Assembly: GCA_008933995.1 (NCBI GenBank)
Contig: WARS01000012.1
Location: 2,418,001-2,482,000, forward strand
Direction: 5' to 3'
Source: Datnioides undecimradiatus
Taxonomy: Eukaryota; Chordata; Actinopteri; Lobotiformes; Datnioididae
DNA: 64,000 bases
Shown: piece after piece, positions 45,895-59,510 of the stretch
Numbering within the stretch: the stretch's first letter is position 1
Layout: each line of letters starts with the position of its first letter
Translations under genes and position numbers: made by a program
Notes under the pieces: generated by a model
What the model saw: only the letters and a program-made list of their open reading frames with translations
What the model was told of the DNA's origin: nothing
The model's database searches: none

Positions 45895-48800
45895 TCAGTT
45901 ATCTGAGGAGGGAAATAAAGACAAAAACAGGTCACAGATATGGTCATCAGAGACATCTTTTTATAAGAGGGAGGATTGATTTGCAAACGCTGGAGGACAG
46001 AGTCACAGCGATCACTAGCAGTGGTGGAAAGTACATTTTCTTAAGCACTGCGCTTCCAATGGAGTATTACCATTTTATACTCCTCTACTTGTGACCCCTT
46101 ACTGCTGGTTTTGAATTGCTGTTTGAGGCCCGAAGATCAAATCCAAGAATCCAATATTTCACAAAAAATGCAAGGATAAGAGAAAAATCCAATATAATGT
46201 TAATTTTGAATACGTTTTTTTTCCTCCTATTGTCAGCCATTAATCATTTCATGACCGTACTGATTTATTTTCTTGAGGCTGAGAACCAATTGTACGAGTA
46301 TTTACACATAAAGTATATAAAAGAAGCTCCATCGCTGTGAGCCACCGCAGTAATATGGTGCTCGTAAGCTGATGCATCACTATATACACATGGGATATTC
46401 TTCTGTGTACTCTTACTTTTGATATTTCAAGGACATTTATACTGCTGCGCTCCTACTTTGATCATAGGACCTTTACTCATAATGGACGATTATTACATCA
46501 CTGTATTGGTACTTTTACTTTACTAACAGGTCTGACTGAGTGTACCTTACCTCTGCACTCATATTTGAGGTCTGAGAAGAGGACGTGTTCCTGAGAGAAG
46601 ACGAACAGTCCCAGTCTGCCTCCAGCCAGGGTGTGGTCATACACCGCCCCCGAGTCGGATAAAATCTCCCTGCCCTCATACACCACCACCCTGCAACAGG
46701 AACACCACACAGCTAACATCATTATACACAGCATTTATTATGTGTTTCACCACAGATTAAGTCCTTGTATAACTGCGAGAGAAAACTCACATCCAAACTA
46801 AAGCTATACGTTTCTATGTTTATATTTGTGTTAAACTCAGTGCTGGAAAGCAACTAAATACATTCCCTCCAATACTTTACTTAAGTACAGTTATAGGCCA
46901 TCATTATTTTTACTCCACTACATTAATCTAAGATATAATTACATTGCAGCATAGGATTAAAAAAAAACAAACTACAAAGTGTAATATAATCTTACAAAAC
47001 TTGATGCATTGTTATACAGTAAATTAAACCACCCCAAATATGCAAAATAGCTGGAATCAGCTCCAAATGCTGCTTGCATGATAATATCAGTGATAATTAT
47101 CCAGTGGTATAATATATAATAATATACCTCCAGCAGAGGCCATTTTGCCTCCATATTAGGAAGCTTTACATTCACTTTTAAGTGTATTATGCTGTTACAT
47201 GCTTGTTATTACATAAGCAAAAATGTAATGCAGGACTTGGTGTAGTATATTTTACACTAGAGGCTAGTCAAGTTTGTATTTTTACTGTGTACTTTTCTTT
47301 TCATACCCCGTTTTATTAAAGAAACACGACGAACATGACGTCAACTGCAGCTATATTTAAAGCATTTACAGCAGTGCTTCATAGCAACTATCCAAAATGT
47401 CAATGTGTGTCTGTCCTTCACGATCAAAGAGCAGCAGCTTCTTTTCAGTCTCACATTCAGTGAGAGCACAATCCTCCTACAATCATGCAGTACCCAGAAT
47501 GCAACACAGCCGCCACTTGTATCTTCAAAGACGGTCATCTTATGAGGATTTTCATGATTTGAACGTCACTGTTTTGTTCCATTTACCCTCACTTGTTCTC
47601 CGCTTGAAAACCTCAGTGTGGTACCGATGTTTTTCCGTCCATCTGCACACAAACAGCACGAGCCACAGAGAGCTCATTGCCCGCGAGCTGTTTTTGAAAG
47701 TCCATTAGTGAGAAGTACAACTAAGTAGAAGTAGATGTGGCAGGTTGAGGAGAACCGGGTACAACAAAGAAAGTGAATTACACTGTTATAAAATAACTCC
47801 TGGAGATTGATGATATCCTCCAGTGTAAGAACATCTGAGGGTGAATTTCTTTATCAAAAAATGGCAGTGAATGCGATTATTTACAGATTTTAAGAAGTTA
47901 TCCAGCAGATTGTTTCTATTACAAACTGCATCTTGGATCATGGATCTGAACTGTGACTGATTGAGCCAGAAATGCATGATTTACAGGACAACACCAGTGG
48001 GGGTTTTTTGCTTGTTTTATCCCATTTATTACAAAGGTGTTGTATTTCTATATTCCACTTTGGTGCTTCAGAGATGTTCTTGTTTTCATACTTTGCAGAG
48101 CTGAAAAAAATGTGGTTCTCCAGTCAGCGTCATGTGTGTTTTTATTGTAAAAGCAGATTAATTTGATGAGCCTGCACTGAGTTTGTACAAATCAGCAATG
48201 CTAGTTTCACAAGATAAACACAGTCAGTCATAATGTTCATAAATCTAATGCAAGCAAAACGTAAATCTCTTATTATACTGGAGAAAAATGAAACCAGTGA
48301 CGGCTTGAAAACGAGGCTAAAAACACATTTACATCTTTAAAAACATGTCGGAAAATGATGTATATGTGATGTGTAGTAAATGGTCTAAAACGCTAATATG
48401 GCCCCTTAAAAACCAGCCAATTATAACAAATGTTTGTACTGGAAATGAAGATCTGTCACTGCTAATGTAGCCTCAAAGTATTTTCATTTATTCCTCTGAG
48501 GAAGTCCAAAAATCTTTATTTTTGTAATTTTAAAACTTGGGTGATTTCCATGATCATAATCCAGCTGTGCTTTTTTGACAGCTAGAACACGAAAATTTAA
48601 ATTCAGGCTCCAGAATGGGAAACCAGCCAAGCAACGAATACTTAATACATCGACAGGTTTATATATGAGTCGTTTGTGACTATTCTTGCCATAGAAACAG
48701 ACTAATGTTTTTGTCATATGATAACAAGAAAACACATGGTTTGAATGAAAAGAGGTGAAAAATAGGTCATGAGGTCAACATATTTCTGTTCTACTTACCT

Positions 48801-50031
48801 GTAATAGTCAATAATACAATATATAAGTTAAAAATATTATAATAGGAGACAACCCTAAAATGGACCACATCACAGTGTGGAGTAATACACTGGATGTCCA
48901 AAAGTTCTCTGCTGTTCCCAAAAGCATTAAGGCTGGGCAATGAGCATAAACCAGCTGCGAGCTGTGATTGTTGAGACTCTCTCTACAGTTATCTCACATA
49001 ATCACCAGCAGGTCGTGAATTACAGGCCTTTTTTTGACCACCTGCACCAAAGCATCTGCAGTGTGTATTTGTGCATTGTCACTGTGGACCTCAAACTTGA
49101 GCAGAGAACAAGAATCACGATCTTGGCCAAACCCAACCTTCACGTGGATGTTGTGACGTGCTGGTTGTTTTCTCTGGCATTTGTGGGGTTGTACACAGCG
49201 CATTCTCTGACACTGCTCTGAGGCAAAAGACTAATTGTACATGATGGTGCTTTGGTTCTCCGTCATGGCACTGCACATTGAAAACTCACAGGGTTTCTGG
49301 CTGCACCAACATAATGATGGCTTCCCACCTTCCCTAAACCTTGGAGTTGATGACGTTAACATCTCTGTCTTCTCCAAAATGAACAGTGGTGGAGGTCCAG
49401 AGGACATCCAGTGCACATCACAGACAGAACTTTACAAGGTTACGTAACTGAACTTCCAGGGAGCAATCCAAACATAGCAAGGCTTAATGACTTAAAGATG
49501 GCCAAATTAAAATCAGTTATGTTTTTTGCTTGTTATAGAAGTAGCCAGAGGACATTTTGATAACACATTCCAACTGTAAGAGTTTCTGAATTACATTGTG
49601 TCAAGGATCTGTGGATGAACTCTATTGTAAGTTAGTTTCTAGCTTGGTTTTTGTCCAGGGAGTTTCCGTTTCTTTTGCCTTAGGAACAGAAAAGATACTG
49701 CATCCCTTTACACCCGAAGGAAAAGTTGACTATTATTGTTATTGTATTGTATTTTGCAGGAACACAAGGGGAAAAGAGTGATTTCTTCACATGCGTAGGA
49801 TATTCTGAGATGAGTCTTCCTCAAGTTTCTCATTTAAATACCTGTAAAGTCTGTTAGAACATCCAGCGATAGAAATCAAGGCATGAAACTAGCACTTTCA
49901 AAGTAATAATGACACTTTTTGTACCTGATGAACCCAGTCTTGGGTCTGTGGATGAGGTGCATGCGGTAGGCAGTGTAGTCCTTCCAGCCAATTTTATTCG
50001 GGTCATGCCATAATGTTTTGACCTGAAACAG

Positions 50032-50067
<36 letters not shown>

Positions 50068-53000
50068 GTAAAGTTGGACAAGAAAATTGCTCTTGAGTAT
50101 CTAAGCTTTACAGTGCCTAATAAATGTCTAATAAAGTTTTGTTTGTCCAAGGTTGTTTTAAGGAAGGCTCATCTGTTCAAATAAGAAATTTAATTTGAAC
50201 TATGACAAGCAAAATACAAAGAGATGAAAAGACACACAAGTCCATGATTCATGCCTGATGTCTGGTGTTTCCGGTGTGCCACAGGGCATTGCGTAGATAT
50301 TCCCCTGGTCCCGTGGTGGAATTGACCAGCTTGATGGAGACTCCTGCTGTGCCAAAAGCTTTGGATGGCTTTTTCTCCCAGTAGGCCTGTGACACCTGTT
50401 CTCATAGAAAGAATGAATGAGGAGGTTTAAAGAGACTGAAGGTTAAGTTGATGTTTGCACACTCGAGGACTGTCGCACAGAGAATGAGAGTCAAGTCTTT
50501 TATGCACTTTTTCATTTTTTGCTATTCGCACTGTGTTCAATCACTCAAGAGAGATACAAAGGGAGTGAAAGAGATATTTGAAAATGTATGAAGAGGGATG
50601 TAACACACTCAAACCTCACATGAAAGGTTTCAAAGGGTTACAATAGGGAACATTATCATTGTTTGTTTGACAAATCTCACCTGTTTCCACATGACAACAT
50701 AAAACCGTTGACTGGACTGGTAGGCGAACACGATGCCTGCGTAGTCGTCATCTCGATTGGTATTGACGTAAAATGTCACACTGAAGTCTACAGAGCTGAA
50801 CTTGTCATATCCTGTTAAATAAGGTAATATTAGTTATGCTGGCTAATAATTTTGATTTGATTGATACTTTTTTCTGGGTGGTTCTTTTTTAATCAGACCT
50901 AAAGCGATGCCAGGGTCTGAGTTGGCCGTCTGCAGCAGCTCTGTGCCTTGGCTGCGGATCACCCACAGAGGGTCAGACTGCGTGGTGCCTTTAGGGTCCA
51001 GCAAAACAACCTGAAACTTCCTGAAGTCTGTAGACCCAATATCCTGGTTCATCGGACAGGGATCCAGCGCATCTGGAATACTGTCGTTGTCAAAGTCGTC
51101 AAAGCATGCGTCTCCACTACCATCACCTGCAAGAGAGAGGAATGAAGAGACAGAATGCAGGCATGTGACTTCCTGGATTCATTTTTGCCAAGATGAGATG
51201 AAAAAAGAAAGAAGACAATGTGTAAATGTTGTGAGAAAGACTTGTTTGATGGTGAATAGATTCAAGAATCTTTTACGTATGATTAATGACACTACGGGGA
51301 GCCATAAACTGTTTATGTTGATGTCCAACATTAACATGACCTGGATCACTGGAGACATGCTGGACAGATAGTCACAAGATTTTACTGCGCAGCTGCAAAA
51401 TGCATTAATCATAAATTGTTCGAAATATCTTTCCCGTGTGACAGCAAATTAATCAGCATTTGTTTGCATCTGTATTATGATATTAGATAAATTCCCAGCT
51501 CTATTGGCCACCTAAACTGACCATCAGAGTCCAGCTGGTCCCTGTTCGGCACTAGTCTGCAATTGTCCCGGTCGTCAGGGATACCGTCGTTGTCATCGTC
51601 ATGGTCGCAGGCGTCTCCCTTTCCATCCTTGTCATGGTCAGCCTGGTTGCTATTGGCGATGTAGGGGCAGTTGTCCAAAGAGTTTTGGTGGCCGTCCTCA
51701 TCGATGTCCTCGTTGTCATCACACATGTCCCCCACCAGGTCACTGTCAGAGTCCAGCTGCAAACAAACACACACACACACATAATACGTTTTATACATTA
51801 ACAGAGTATTAAATCACAAATCTCCATGCACAGTTTTACCTTAACCAGCACATCCACTCCCTGCATAGACTTCCAAGATTTTCTTTTCATGTATTAAAAT
51901 AAAAAACATCCATCTCTGATTGATTGCCACTAAAAGTTGCTACCCCATTCCAGATGTTCTGTGAGGCAACACCACCAACATGAAAGTGGTTTTAAATCCA
52001 CTATATCATGAGATACATGTGTGCTTTTAAGCATTAGTGTTCGGTGTTTTGCAGAGACCTGCAGTGGGTTGTGTAGAAGGGGACAATTGTCACACTGGTC
52101 TCCCACACCGTCCAGGTCTGTGTCCCTCTGGTCAGTGTTGTAGACTAAGGGACAGTTGTCGCGGTCATTCAGAACCTCTGGAGAGCGACACAAACAGAGA
52201 AAAATTCATTTCCTGTGGCCTTTACTCTTTTATTACACATACAAACAACACTTCATTGGGTATATATCAAGACTTTGTATGGGTAAATATAATTTGATCC
52301 ATATTTAAGGAGTAAGTTAACGCTAATCTACTTTTTTCACTACACCCTGGTCCCAGTTTGTTGTGTTCATTGCAGCAGAATTTGTTCTTTTCTCCTGTGA
52401 AAATGAAGTAAACGTTTCCTCTAGAATCCAGAGAAAAATCTGTTTAAAATCTGTCACATACACCTATTCATATTCCTTTTTCTGTCTCCCTCCACTGCTT
52501 CCACTGAGGCTAAGCTAATGCTAGTTTGCAGGTCATACAACTCTGGTAGTGAAAATGGAGACTCAGGGGAGGAACTGGAGTTAGTGTCACTGCTTTCAAT
52601 TTCAGCTAGTAGGAAAGCAGTATGACTCCTAAACCTGAAACATGAGCTACTATCGGTCTTAAAGAAATGAAGAATTAAAGAACTTCGGTCTCAGCAGGAT
52701 TTGGAAAAACTTATACAGGTCCTGATCAGACAGCTGCAGTTGATTCACAACACTGCTGCTCGAGTCCGCACTCAGACCAGGAAAGTGGATCAAATCGCTC
52801 AAGTTCTTTCTTCTTCTTGTCCACCAAAGGATTGTTGTTTTTTTAACAAAGCATTGAATGGTTGAAGGGCCAAAATACATTTTTGATCTGCGGTTGCGTT
52901 ATGATCCCCTCCGTCCCCTCTGGGATCGCTCAGGACAGTTCTGCTATCTGTCCCTGAGTTAAAACTAAATATGGAGAAGCAGCATTTAGTTTTTATGCAC

Positions 53001-56000
53001 CACATATGTGCAACAAACTCCCTGAAAGCTGAGGCTCTGCTGCAAATCTCAGTTCCTTCAAGTCAAGGCCAAAGACTTTCCCGTTTGCTGCTGCCTTTAT
53101 TAAATAAAAACTGAACTTTTGATTGCTTCCATACACTGCACTGCAACATTTTTATATTTCTTATTCCTTTTAAGCAAATTTGTATTTACTATTTAGCTCT
53201 TTAAGTTTTTTTAAATATATTTTTTTAAAAATCTTGATACCTTTGTAAGAGGTACTTGGCAAAAGCATTGTACAGCTACCTGTTTGGGGTTATTTGGCTG
53301 GAGTTGGGCTGGTTCAAATGCTTTTTCTAAAAATCTGATGGGTGTTAAACTGTTTTATCTCTGTGACAGAACATATTAAACGATGAATAATACATATTTG
53401 TAGAGATACTATCATAATTATTCACTCAATACAGGTGAAATAATGGGCTATGTAATGTTCCAGGTCAGAAGCTCCTACCGTCTCCATCAATGTCGATGCT
53501 GCAGGCATCTCCCTCTCCGTTGTCATCAGTGTCTGTCTGCAGTGGGTTGCTATCAAACGGGCAGTTATCGCAGCGGTCCCCGACCCCGTCTCTGTCGGAG
53601 TCAAACTGCCGAGGGTTGTACACCAGCGGGCAATTGTCCTATTCCAAACACACATATTTGCACACACACACACACACACACACAGAGCATGTGAATATTT
53701 GCCTGTCTTTTGACGTGAAATGCTTTAGTTGCTCCATCTCTGAGCCACAGATTCACCCTCTCATCAATGATGTCATCATTGTCGTCATCAGGATCACAGG
53801 CGTCTCCCTGTCCATCCATGTCGAGGTCTTCCTGTCCAGAGTTTGGCAGCATGGGGCAATTATCCTGCAGCCAATCACAACTCAGATTAGTGAAATTACA
53901 CCCACCCAGAACATTACTGGCATGTCAGATTACATGTTTTTAATTCTCTCACCTTTTGACAGTGATAGGTTGCATTCTGTTTGCAGGTTAATCTGTAGTT
54001 GGGCCAGCCATCCAGATCAGAGTCTTCACCACATAAGAAGCCATCGCCCGCAAACCCGACAGCACACACACACTTGAACAAAATCTCTGATGCCAGGCCC
54101 AGGTACACACACTCCGCATATTTGTGGCAGTTGTGTGTGTTGTCTTTGCAAGGATTGTATGGTTCACACATCTACAAACAGAGCAAGCACTTGAGAATCC
54201 AAACATGAATCATGATCACAGCTTAAAGCAAGTACAGGAATTCATACGATAATGTTCAAAGAGGAACACACATGCCTGCCTGTTTCTTTGGGCTTCCTGC
54301 AGTCCTAGGCCATATGGCTGAGTGCCTTTATAGCGAGGAGGACAGGGCAGACAGTAGTACCCAGGATCTGTGTTTACACACCCTGTGACACACACATCCT
54401 CCACTTCACACTGCAAAGTCAGACAATAAACGGTGGCATTAGATTAAAAGTCAAGTCATTCAGGTTCATCCTGTGGGGATCATTATTGTCTGTACAGAAG
54501 AAGAGATGAGAGAGATGACAATCATTGACAGTAAAACCTGTTTTTGCTTAAAGACAAAGCATTGCAGGTGCTACTGCAGATGCACAATAAGTTGACTTCA
54601 AAAATAAGCTGACTTCAAAAATGACATTATATGTGACAACATGTGTAACAATGAGCCATTACCTCATTCTCATCCTCACAGTGAGTGCCATTCCCATGTA
54701 AACCCAACGGACAGTGGCCACATTCCCACGATCCATCACTGTGTGATGTGCACTCCACCCCAGGAAAACAAGGATTTGACAGCAAACATACATCTAGAAA
54801 CACATACAAATATACACATTAGGGCAATTAGTTATTGAAAAATAATCCAAGATTGGGTTAACAGCACATGAAGAAGTTTTTATTTTAAGCATTTTATTTT
54901 TGTCTGCTCAGTTATGAGCTCCAATAAGCTCTTTTATCATCCTCAGCTGTTTGAGAATATGTTTTGCCCAATAAAAAAGGGAATATGATTTATCCATGGA
55001 TATGAGGCTTAACCTGCTTATAGAGTAATATCTGCTTACACAGTTTGGGATGAACCTATAGCCTAAGGGTTTTTGAACAGGATGATGGTTTTACCTATAG
55101 GACATGGTTGTTTGTTACATGCTTCATAGTCCACAGCGTCTCCAGCACAAGGCTTCCCACCGTTCTGAGGGGCAGGGTTCAAACACTCCCGCCGGCGAAT
55201 CATAAGACCTCCCCCGCACGACTCTGAGCACAGTGACCACCCGGACCAGCTTGTCCAGCCTCCGGCAACTAAACACAAGCACACTGTTTACCTGTACACC
55301 ATCTAAGTAACAGAGAACTGTCTGTTGTTGTGCACTTGTGCTTGTCTACTCACTGGGGCACAGGGTATTGTTGCAAGATTGTGTCTCCCTGGCGCTGCCC
55401 CTGCACCCTCTCCCCCCCTTCTGTGGTGGGGGGTTGTTGCAGAGACGAACCCGTGTGATATTGCCCTCCCCACATGTGGTTGTGCATGCAGACCATGGAG
55501 ACCAAAGGCCCCAGTTCCCGTCAGCGCGCACTAGACATAAAACAGACACATAAAGATTGTAAAAGGTTTTTGGTACAGTAGCCTGGAAAAGTCTCAGCAG
55601 TAGAATTTAACACAGACCACCACCATAGCTCCAAGCTGTGTATATATTTACACAACTACAGCATGTTTCCAATTAGGACTCCAATCTTTCAAATCCATTC
55701 GTCTGAAGTTCCATACTTTTGAGGAATGTTCAGTTCATTCCCTTGGACCAGCCATGCTCAATCAGTCACAGAAACAAAATTAATTCAAGACTTTTGACAG
55801 ATCAGATGAGTAGAGTGATGACCTACCCTTGCGGTCACACTTCATCACCATGCAGCTACGGGTTTGGACTGACGGGCCGGTACAGGATGGCATGATGCCA
55901 TTGCAGGATCGGCCCCTTTGATGCCCTCCACGTCCACATGTGACCGAACAGTCGGTCCACTCAGACCACGGGGACCAGCCATCTTCGTTATCTTGATACA

Positions 56001-59000
56001 CACATACACTGTTGGTATACTATTGTCAAATGTTGTCACTTAGCACATGTTTTCCACAATAAATCACAGTTTCAGCCTAATCAAACTCACTGAGACACAC
56101 GGGACAGCACTCTCCATCGTTAAAGGACGGATTTATGCAGGATACAGGAGGACAAGACGCCTGCTGACACACCACCTTTCCATCCTATAAAAGGTGTGGA
56201 GGATACAGACAAGTGTTCACACATGCAGAATTCAACACTATTAATAGCCAAGCCATGTTAGTTTGAGCCAGATGTTTTGCTAAGTGCCAGTCCATGCAGA
56301 GGAATGGTATGCTGTCATGACTCATAATAGGTCTGGCTACTCCCTCAATCCATCCTTGACAAAACTAATGATGCTTTATAAAGAGAAACAGACTCAGATG
56401 AAGCAAGCATGAAAATACAGGAGAATAACAAAAGCAGCTCTGGAAATAAATGAAACCACATTGGATACAAGTGAAGCTTAAGTATTTGTCCAACTGGTTA
56501 ATACATTTTTAAAGGGATAGCTTGACATTTTGGAAAATATGCTTATTTGTTTTCTTGCCAGGGGTTCAGTGAGAAGACAGATGCCATGCTACAGCCAAGG
56601 AGGCTATTAGCTCAGCATATATTACATATAATTCTCTGTGAGATCACTACCTGTCAGTTCTACATTTTAATTTTTGTACAATTAAACAAATCAAACATAA
56701 CGTGAGATTGAGAGTAGGGAGCTGATTTTTTAACCTTTCAGCAGAGCCAGTTTTGGCTAACTGTCTCCTGCCTGCAGCTTCTTAACAGCTACTATGTGCT
56801 CTCATGTTACTGTCTCATGAAAAAGTGTAATAAGTTTAGGCTGCACTAGATTCAGTTTTTGGACTCAGGACTTTTATCAGGACAAAACTTGAAACTTGAT
56901 ATTATGGCCTTTAAGTCCCAAGTCACATCAAGTCTAAAGTAATTTGTGTTCAAGTCCAAAGACATCATGTAGAAAATGAAAAGAAAATACCACAAAAAGA
57001 TTTGGATGTGAGTCAGACTGTAGTCACAATAAGGTCTTGAGACTTGACCTGAACTGCCCCTGAACGAGTAAAAAACTTTAAGCTCAGCTACATGCAAAAT
57101 AGAATAACAGATAAAGATGGAAGTGATTATAGAGTAAAAGGTTTAACCCAAATGATGCAGGTCTATCTGTCAGAGACCTTCCATGGCGCTCACCCAGGAA
57201 ACACTTCACTGTCACTGCTAATATTTTAGACTGTGGTTATATAAGATTTGTTAAACACTGACCTGGCAAGTGCAGGAGGTGCAGCTGTCGACCTCCCAGT
57301 TGTCCCCGTGCTCGTACACTCGTCCATCCTGTACACACCAGACCTCCCCGTCTCTGCCTCTGTCAGGATCGTCAAGATCCACGCCACCACCACGGCTGCC
57401 ACTATGGCCATCGCCACCACGGCTATTGAAATGGCCGTCAGTACGACCATGACCATAGCTGCCGCTACGGCCATTGCCACGGCCACCACCATGGTCAGCG
57501 TCATGGCCACCAGCATTGCCACTGCTGCCACCATGGCCATCTCCATTGCCACGGCTGCGACCGCGGCCATCTCCATCTCCCCAACCACGGCCATCTCCAT
57601 CGCCCCAACCACGGCCATCTCCATCACCCCAACCACGGTTGTCTCCAGTGCCCCAACCATGGCCATCTCCACCACCCCAACCACGGCCATCTCCATCGCC
57701 CCAACCACGGCCATCTCCAGTGTGCCAACCATGGCCATCTCCATTTCCATCTCCAGTACGCCAACCATGGCCATCTCCATTTCCATCTCCAGTGCGCCAA
57801 CTACGGCCATCTCCATTTCCATCTCCAGTGCGCCAACCATGGCCATCTCCAGTGCCCCAACCACGGCCATCTCCATCGCCCCAACCACGGCCATCTCCAT
57901 CGCCCCAACCACGGCCATCTCCAGTGCGCCAACCATGGCCATCTCCATTTCCATCTCCAGTGCCCCAACCACGGCCATTTTCAGCTCCCCAAACAAGGCC
58001 ATCTCCAGTCCTCCAACCATGACCTTCTCCGCCTCCCCAACCACGATTGTTGCCATGGCCATCACCATCTCCATCGCCATGGCTGTCACCATGGCTGCCA
58101 CCATGGCCACTGCTGTTGCTCAGCTCAACCAAAGATATTCGCATTTCTTCGTTTTCTTTTGACTGAGAACAGAAATAAATACATGTTAAATTTTAAAAAT
58201 ATATTTTTTAAAAAATGTCATGTTTATTGTGCATTAGTACACAGAGAACTGTTGAATTAGGCCAGAGTGGTGGTTAAGTTGATTAGTAGCCAACATTTTA
58301 ACACTGATGGTATTCTTTCTGCTTTTTTTTTTTTTTGGCCCAAATTACCAGGACATTTACCACAAACCACAGTGCTTCCTGCCAGAAAAAAGGATGTCAC
58401 TACTTGTTCCATTTGCACTGAAAGAAGAGCTGCTCTGTGCTGGTTTTGACACACAGATTTCCCACAATGCTCTACCCTGTCAAACAATATGCAAAGTGCA
58501 TTGCAGATTCTGGCGAAGACGTTCTCTGTAATTGTAATTGTTTATTATAATAAAAAAAATAGTGAGAATTAATATTCCAATGTTTCACACATGTTAAAAC
58601 ACCATAAACTGTGCTTGCTTTTTCAAATAAAATCAAAATTTATCAAATCAAATCAAAATAAAGGCAACAAAGAAACATGCAGAGGACACATGTGCATGTA
58701 TTTATGTGTCTTACTACTCTCTCCAGGTCTTCGAGCAGGTTGCTGGTGACAATACGCAGGCCTTGGATCTCAGTGAGCAAGCCCAGCAGCTCCTCGCACG
58801 GATGACGACACATCTCTGACGACACATTGTCCACCTTTGCACCACCCACACCTGTAGAGGAGGCACAGGTGTGTAAGCTCTGGTCTTGGTTTTGTATTTC
58901 AGCATTAAAGCTGGAGACAAGGTGATGGAGAAATTGCATTTGTGCATCTATGTTTGAATGCTGGCATAATGCACATGTGAGAGTGTGTGTGATACCTGCA

Positions 59001-59059
59001 CACACAGCTGCTGCATAGAGGAATATCAAAAGCAAGGGAAAACCTCTCAGTGGACTCAT
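45895..59059 (-). CDS. thbs2: Subgroup A thrombospondin lacking the N-terminal TSPN domain
   Basis: Secreted trimeric matrix glycoprotein. Twenty exons join in phase to about 1187 aa: 59059-58996, 58851-58715, 58162-57263, 56184-56091, 55991-55827, 55530-55354, 55268-55095, 54793-54663, 54410-54276, 54171-53953, 53864-53757, 53638-53479, 52177-52059, 51756-51522, 51126-50899, 50811-50681, 50395-50255, 50022-49925, 46690-46551, 45902-45895. Order: signal peptide (1-21), coiled coil with Cys36/Cys40 as CxxxC (about 36-85), Gly/Asp-rich repeats (about 85-330), VWC (about 335-398), three TSRs (399-570), three EGFs (571 to about 715), type 3 Ca2+ repeats, and L-lectin-like C-terminal domain with RFYVVMWKQ. 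Residues such as [14 protein letters not shown] and KDYTAYR favour THBS2; some type 3 repeats look THBS1-like, so the symbol is provisional. The laminin-G-like TSPN domain of THBS1/2 is absent. Introns after 54276 and 50255 have GC donors. Confidence 0.93.
46018..46528. mobile_element. Dispersed teleost repeat ('aagtac' type), in last thrombospondin intron
   Basis: It starts with AGCAGTGGTGGAAAGTACAT and ends with GTACTTTTACTTTAC, the ends I associate with a very common non-autonomous repeat of fish genomes. It carries no coding sequence. It lies in the last thrombospondin intron and ends about 20 bp from the splice donor at 46550. Family name from memory only. Confidence 0.5.
46840..47300. 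mobile_element. Second copy of the 'aagtac'-type teleost repeat
   Basis: CAGTGCTGGAAAGCAACTAA, then ACTTTACTTAAGTACAG and TTTTTACTCCACTACATT, match the first part of the element at 46018-46528 with decay. The right end is vague. It lies in the thrombospondin intron between the exons at 46690 and 49925. Confidence 0.45.
50043..50067. repeat. (AC)n microsatellite at a splice acceptor
   Basis: About 12 AC units (GT on the sense strand) start about 20 bp upstream of the thrombospondin exon that begins at 50022. Confidence 0.9.
52660..53180 (+). mobile_element. Degenerate non-LTR retrotransposon 3' end (L2-like)
   Basis: The plus strand keeps a broken reading of the C-terminal part of a LINE reverse transcriptase ORF, including [11 protein letters not shown] and, in another frame, the usual run about small shops of aromatic and basic residues before a short 3' tail. 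Stops and frame breaks occur throughout, so it is a dead copy. It lies antisense in the thrombospondin intron between the exons at 52177 and 53479. Confidence 0.65.
56505..56790. repeat. Dispersed teleost repeat ('gacattttggaaaatatgct' type)
   Basis: TTGACATTTTGGAAAATATG and GCTTATTTGTTTTCTTGCCA begin it, and GCTAACTGTCTCCTGCCTGC ends it. Partial or inverted relatives occur at about 110-300, 9150-9270 and 33750-34065 in this window. It is non-coding and lies in the thrombospondin intron before exon 4. Confidence 0.5.
57385..58115 (-). repeat. Coding minisatellite: Gly/Asp/Arg/His/Trp repeats inside thrombospondin exon 3
   Basis: Within the 900-nt exon 58162-57263 the sequence is a tandem array whose clearest core, about 57560-58020, has a 24-bp period. 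Each period encodes an 8-residue unit of the form GWGDGDGR or GWGTGDGH, with Trp every 8 residues; a 36-bp variant encodes [12 protein letters not shown]. Edges decay into Gly/Asn/His-rich sequence. The exon begins with [14 protein letters not shown], continuing the coiled coil, and ends with the first half of the VWC domain, so the array is held in frame on both sides. Because periods are multiples of 3, other frames and the opposite strand are also open; these are by-products. The segment resembles no thrombospondin domain I know. Confidence 0.9.
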
Positions 59060-59510
59060 TCCTGTTCACACATAAATCACATATGCAGTCACCATGAAAT
59101 ATAGGAACCACACTGCTACACCACCACACAATGCAAGCAGGACTGCTGCAGAGGAGATAAAAGACGAAGAAGAAGATGAAGAGGGAATAAACCTCTCATA
59201 CTTGCGTACTCCTCGCTGGTCTGCCTTTCCCCACGATAAGAAATCACGGCTAGTAGCCTCGTCCCTGCTGCAGCTCCACAGGGGCTGTGATGGAATGTCT
59301 GTCTTCTTTTGCTCTTCCTTATTTCCTTGTTTCCTCGTCCCCTTCTCACCTTGGCATCCGGACCAGTGCAGCCTCCTCACTAATTTGTTGTTGAGGCATC
59401 CAAAAGAAACAGCGCTGTGAAATCTGAAGGAACAACATGCAGACAGCTCTGTTAGTTCTGTAGTGAGCTCTAATGTGGTTATGTATTTGTTTGAGAGTGT
59501 GTGAGAGTCT

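Follow-up and report, generated by a model that had tools for sequence, protein, structure and literature searches.

The window, a stretch of 64,000 nucleotides from the genome of Datnioides undecimradiatus, carries on its minus strand (59062-46551) a gene for a subgroup A thrombospondin that is intact apart from the amino-terminal, laminin-G-like TSPN domain. We placed 19 coding exons, whose phases agree and which read without a stop into 1185 residues comprising a signal peptide, a CxxxC coiled coil, a vWC domain, three thrombospondin type 1 repeats (TSRs), an EGF region, type 3 repeats and the C-terminal domain. The introns that follow exons 9 and 17 are of the GC-AG type (window positions 54276 and 50255), and the remaining donors are GT. 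An earlier note on this DNA had claimed that all phases agree over 20 exons; this held for the 19 exons placed, whereas the last was not located. A count of 20 is nevertheless plausible, because a final short coding exon is expected beyond the phase-1 donor at 46550. The note's statement that the rest of the protein is intact was borne out both by the open frame and by Pfam, whose VWC, TSP_1 (three), EGF, TSP_3 and TSP_C domains cover nearly the whole protein, with TSP_3 and TSP_C exceeding the Pfam cut-offs.

All features described below lie on the minus strand. Exon 1 (58996..59062, phase 0 to 1, GT donor) contains the ATG at 59059 and the signal peptide, its coding part (59059-58996) being 64 bases long; the MSPLRGFP-like start is common to many relatives of the protein. 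It is followed by an intron of 144 bp (58852..58995), the site of two TSPN exons in the thbs2a gene, in which we found no TSPN match, and by exon 2 (58715..58851, 137 bases, phase 1 to 0, AG acceptor, GT donor), which encodes the CxxxC motif and the coiled coil. This junction had been described in the earlier note and was confirmed together with its splice sites, as was the retention of the cysteines: CRHPC, at residues 36-40 (58796..58810), is the pair preceding the coil that is described as a subgroup A pattern (PMC1464143). Further upstream lies a probable 5′ untranslated exon (59202..59412, both ends approximate), which would be spliced to the signal-peptide exon from a putative GTATGA donor at 59201. 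Indeed, the N-terminal extensions of five predicted proteins from other fish match the region from about 59412 to 59202 with 61-78% identity and resume at 59062, so that in these predictions the upstream exon is joined directly to the signal-peptide exon; the longest match spans two stop codons in the window.

Exon 3 (57263..58162, 900 bp, phase 0 to 0) encodes the end of the coil, a low-complexity linker and the start of the vWC domain. The linker (57347..58120) is built mostly of 24-bp repeat units and has 258 residues, among them 108 Gly, 40 Asp, 26 Arg, 18 Trp and 17 His (42% glycine), with the units GDGRGW and GDGHGW recurring. Open frames that overlap this exon on both strands we regard as a side effect of the 24-bp repeat. 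The remainder of the vWC domain is found in exon 4 (56091..56184, Pfam), the three type 1 repeats in exons 5-7 (55095..55991) and the EGF-like region in exons 8-10 (53953..54793), these last two by Pfam and PDB matches, while Pfam places the type 3 calcium-binding repeats and the start of the C-terminal domain in exons 11-15 (50899..53864) and the L-lectin-like C-terminal domain in exons 16-19 (46551..50811, with the final exon at 46690-46551). Intron 12 (52178-53478) is long and has open frames of 60-90 residues, possibly remnants of a transposable element. The nearest solved structures are those of TSP-2, aligned over residues 572-1185, with COMP weaker. The protein thus has the vWC domain with three type 1 repeats, the cysteine pair before the coil, and the type 3 and C-terminal domains of subgroup A; two usual features are missing, TSPN (by Pfam, profile and genome search) and the RGD of type 3 repeat 7 (by alignment), the latter not being a defining feature of the subgroup.

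To look for the domain we used a TSPN profile made from six relatives on all stop-to-stop frames of at least 25 residues in the window, in a 20-kb flank on each side and in the genome's three remaining subgroup A loci. All three of these loci, which served as positive controls, were found with E values of 2e-71 or better, and the best value in the window and flanks was 7.6, which is chance; a recognisable TSPN exon overlooked there is thereby ruled out. A tblastn search of the window and flanks with five TSPN queries gave only matches of 18-24 residues, with E values of 3.1 or worse. The earlier note had also raised the matter of a gap, and the window sequence contains no N. Searching the 581-Mb genome with the TSPN exon of this fish's thbs2a gave three places at E ≤ 0.01, namely thbs2a on contig C337 and, on C307 and C466, two loci whose TSPN is thbs1-like; at this threshold there was no orphan exon elsewhere. 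This search reaches to about 35% identity and missed the TSPN exons of subgroup B in a genome that holds at least eight thrombospondin loci, counted by C-terminal domain, and therefore excludes only a recognisable subgroup A copy. As far as these searches reach, the absence of TSPN from an otherwise intact gene, which the earlier note had proposed, is supported.

The thbs2a gene of the same fish suggests how the exons could be dispensed with. Its signal-peptide exon (67 bp, phase 0 to 1) is followed by a TSPN exon (554 bp, phase 1 to 0), an exon that ends the domain (85 bp, phase 0 to 1) and the coil exon, entered at phase 1. The two middle exons form a symmetric block of 639 bp, phase 1 in and phase 1 out, and the signal-peptide exon therefore splices in frame to the coil exon when they are removed; thbs2a minus its two TSPN exons has the phases of the window gene. 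The coil exon is shorter in the window gene than in thbs2a, with less linker ahead of the CxxxC motif.

For the phylogeny, a pool of 163 database proteins (all relatives being predicted proteins) was drawn from the best 120 of 3036, of 1656 and of 2408 matches at 90% clustering, and with the window protein added, 84 of the 164 sequences were chosen by hand. The first tree had 79 rows, without the fused P0035, the unnamed P0071 and three rows that are fragmentary or odd (P0066, P0030 and P0028), and the second had 47 rows, with bootstraps. Teleost THBS2 falls into two clades, thbs2a and thbs2b, and osteoglossomorphs, elopomorphs, otocephalans and euteleosts are represented in both. In the 47-row tree the thbs2b clade has a bootstrap/SH-aLRT support of 100/100, as has euteleost thbs2b within it, on a stem of 0.32 changes per site compared with about 0.02-0.06 in deeper teleost stems nearby; the first split among the euteleosts is moderately supported (89/78). 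Both clades were recovered in the 79-row tree (SH-aLRT 100, stem 0.29). The window gene sits in the thbs2b clade and not in thbs2a, answering the phylogenetic check suggested in the earlier note, and lies among percomorph sequences, with Scatophagus the nearest by path among the matches listed. Eight placements were checked against the taxonomy (Osmerus, Oncorhynchus, Aplochiton, Gadus and Scatophagus as Euteleosteomorpha, Alosa and Hemibagrus as Otomorpha, Albula as Elopomorpha), and the other species we take to belong to the groups under which they are named here. There is a PSME4 match on C337 (11.89 Mb) at a distance of about 66 kb from thbs2a, and another on C465 (2.49 Mb), which lies some 12 kb upstream of the window gene; other contigs gave none. 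PSME4 beside each thbs2 copy, although a single neighbour family, is the pattern of whole-genome-duplication twins, and the window gene is thbs2b, the twin of thbs2a from the teleost duplication.

Among the matches listed, a TSPN domain scoring above 50 bits was present in none of the 35 euteleost thbs2b rows, in all 12 thbs2b rows of other teleosts and in 20 of 20 thbs2a rows. Relatives with the same architecture, for which the earlier note had suggested a search, are thus numerous, and a loss peculiar to D. undecimradiatus is ruled out. By eye, the hydrophobic start runs into the coil in 24 of 32 euteleost rows inspected; the other eight are fragments or late starts, in which, as in the three rows outside this set (P0031, P0066 and P0122), a missing TSPN says little. 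Of the 35 rows, seven (P0026, P0027, P0028, P0030, P0031, P0066 and P0122) were assigned by similarity and name rather than by the tree. Since the loss is common to the sampled euteleosts, whose predicted thbs2b proteins extend from salmonids to percomorphs, it is old. The simplest reading would be one loss on the long euteleost stem branch, where the whole protein appears to have changed fast. In a known family this is a genuine, clean loss of the domain, apparently throughout the clade. The short proteins are already in public databases, named "thrombospondin-2-like" or "Thrombospondin 2b", yet the pattern of loss seems unremarked; we found no report of it in the open-licence literature, which is weak evidence of novelty.

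A second loss, which like the gene's identity and the breadth of the TSPN loss goes beyond the earlier note, concerns the RGD of type 3 repeat 7, replaced by SGD in the window gene (51110..51118, by alignment). Outside euteleost thbs2b the motif is present in all 51 rows among the matches listed (12 other thbs2b, 20 thbs2a, 10 further THBS2 and 9 THBS1), and it is reported as conserved in chordate subgroup A (PMC6526912). The alignment omitted three of the 35 euteleost thbs2b rows; in the 32 listed, RGD is kept in five (Osmerus, Aplochiton, Oncorhynchus, Esox and Coregonus), and the other 27, all cod-like or percomorph, have SGD, SGE, CGD or GGE instead. In Osmerus and Oncorhynchus the start looks complete and TSPN is missing, yet RGD is there, so that RGD was lost after TSPN.

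The linker differs as well. The distance from CxxxC to the vWC domain, measured in 23 of 32 TSPN-bearing rows, is 39-57 residues (53-57 in 18 of them, most of the shorter spans having a seemingly mispredicted coil end), while for euteleost thbs2b, with 26 of 35 rows measured, the range is 61-318, except for P0007 (41, coil cut), with 306 in the window protein; the CxxxC pattern search behind these figures passed over some rows and once matched spuriously (in P0122). In other fish the linker is rich in Ser, Asn or Asp-Arg, and in some it is almost absent. All 35 euteleost thbs2b rows listed have the C-terminal motif RFYVVMWK. Compared by domain, the window protein is 85-93% identical to turbot (Scophthalmus) thbs2b, a sign of constraint, and 64-80% identical to that of the catfish Hemibagrus, against 79-94% for the thbs2a pair of turbot and Silurus. 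The median path to Latimeria is 0.90 for euteleost thbs2b, 0.39 for other thbs2b and 0.33 for thbs2a.

Among known systems, THBS2 and fish thbs2a share with the window gene the flanking exon phases, the CxxxC coil, the vWC domain, three TSRs, the EGF region and the type 3 and C-terminal domains, but fish thbs2a keeps TSPN and RGD. COMP (TSP-5, subgroup B) has likewise lost the exons of the N-terminal domain while retaining the coil, four exons being absent from the human and mouse genes (PMC1464143); unlike the window gene it has neither vWC domain nor TSRs and is pentameric (PMC1464143). Its loss hit a different gene and is therefore independent. TSP-1 proteolysed by ADAMTS1, elastase or cathepsin G leaves a C-terminal part without the N-terminal domain that resembles thbs2b in outline (PMC9185677); in that case cleavage releases an N-terminal fragment, whereas in euteleost thbs2b the fragment would never be made. 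The same source states that the N-terminal domain is cut by proteases including ADAMTS1 and that localisation in the matrix is set by the C-terminus (PMC9185677). Poriferan thrombospondins differ from the window gene in lacking the coiled coil and having more TSRs, and the paper describing them leaves their relation to subgroup A open.

A survey of three fish in 2006 ascribed the N-terminal domain to "many TSPs", checked subgroup B for it and found it missing from the TSP-4b at the COMP locus (PMC1464143); in the portion of the survey available, its absence from a subgroup A member is not reported. The survey gives one TSP-2 for each pufferfish and two for zebrafish, the zebrafish chromosome 12 copy having no EST and being dropped from further analysis (PMC1464143). 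Among the matches listed, pufferfish are represented by thbs2a only, which agrees with that single gene and may mean that they have lost thbs2b. For zebrafish, thbs2b has been described both in the matrix of the skeleton and in the pacemaker region (PMC3946537, PMC8487553).

We consider it very probable that thbs2b arose in the teleost genome duplication and that it lost its two TSPN exons in the euteleost stem, in keeping with the gene structure, the lack of a recognisable TSPN, the position in the tree, the psme4 synteny and the loss of RGD observed here; it would now act much as a clipped thrombospondin does. Stem euteleosts (the lineage leading to salmonids, smelts, cods and percomorphs) would have dropped the two TSPN-coding exons, the signal-peptide exon then splicing in frame to the coiled-coil exon. 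As the earlier note supposed, the product is probably still secreted as a disulphide-linked trimer. It would be a permanently clipped form, bound to the matrix through its C-terminus and retaining the TSR, EGF, type 3 and C-terminal contacts to matrix and cells, while N-terminal binding of heparan sulphate and calreticulin signalling would be lost and uptake through LRP1 reduced; we infer the loss of these contacts, and of the integrin contacts ascribed to TSPN in the earlier note, from the missing domain. In cods and percomorphs thbs2b would also lack RGD integrin attachment, and the low-complexity linker may let the arms extend farther from the trimer hub. The ancestral functions would be held by thbs2a, whose TSPN is retained in this genome.

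That a single event accounts for the absence is our inference from its distribution. Several independent losses are unlikely: the branch order of salmonids and smelts is moderately supported (89/78) and the salmonid side hangs on one complete-looking start (P0034), but TSPN is absent from every one of the euteleost rows listed, and the tree unites those it includes in a single clade (100/100). We think it quite unlikely that thbs2b is a pseudogene in the making, shedding domains while thbs2a covers for it. The long stem (0.29-0.32), the faster evolution seen in the paths to Latimeria and the lost RGD would fit such decay; however, all 19 located exons are open with usable splice sites, the gene is present from salmonids to percomorphs, and its type 3 and C-terminal regions are 93% identical to those of turbot.

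An artefact of assembly or annotation, with a TSPN exon collapsed or missed, might be suspected from an intron of just 144 bp in a gene structure read from genomic DNA. It is very unlikely given a window without N, a genome in which no orphan TSPN was found and a join that recurs in the predicted proteins of many species, five of which share the upstream exon. COMP and, as reported, the TSP-4b at the fish COMP locus (PMC1464143) normally lack the domain, which could make the window gene a fish COMP; this is scarcely conceivable for a protein whose vWC domain, three TSRs and cysteine pair before the coil are those of subgroup A, whose best solved match is TSP-2 and whose gene nests within THBS2, and the domains alone refute that identity.

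The reading of thbs2b as a TSPN-less duplicate that acts like a clipped thrombospondin can be carried further, to a subgroup A thrombospondin stripped stepwise of its cell-contact modules, TSPN in stem euteleosts and then RGD in acanthomorphs (cods and percomorphs), which has grown a fast-changing linker and become a neofunctionalised matrix component parallel to COMP. We regard the chances of this extension as evenly balanced. The long stem branch could instead reflect relaxed constraint and not a new role. If it is true, a stripped thbs2b has been kept in euteleost fish since the stem lineage, and zebrafish would be no model for it, provided that its thbs2b has TSPN, like the cyprinids sampled. 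Next to COMP, thbs2b is a second example of a thrombospondin that dropped TSPN and retained the coil. The thbs2b of cyprinid models such as zebrafish may differ in function from that of euteleost models, and a clade in which TSPN is present in one copy (thbs2a) and missing by descent from the other is a natural separation-of-function experiment.
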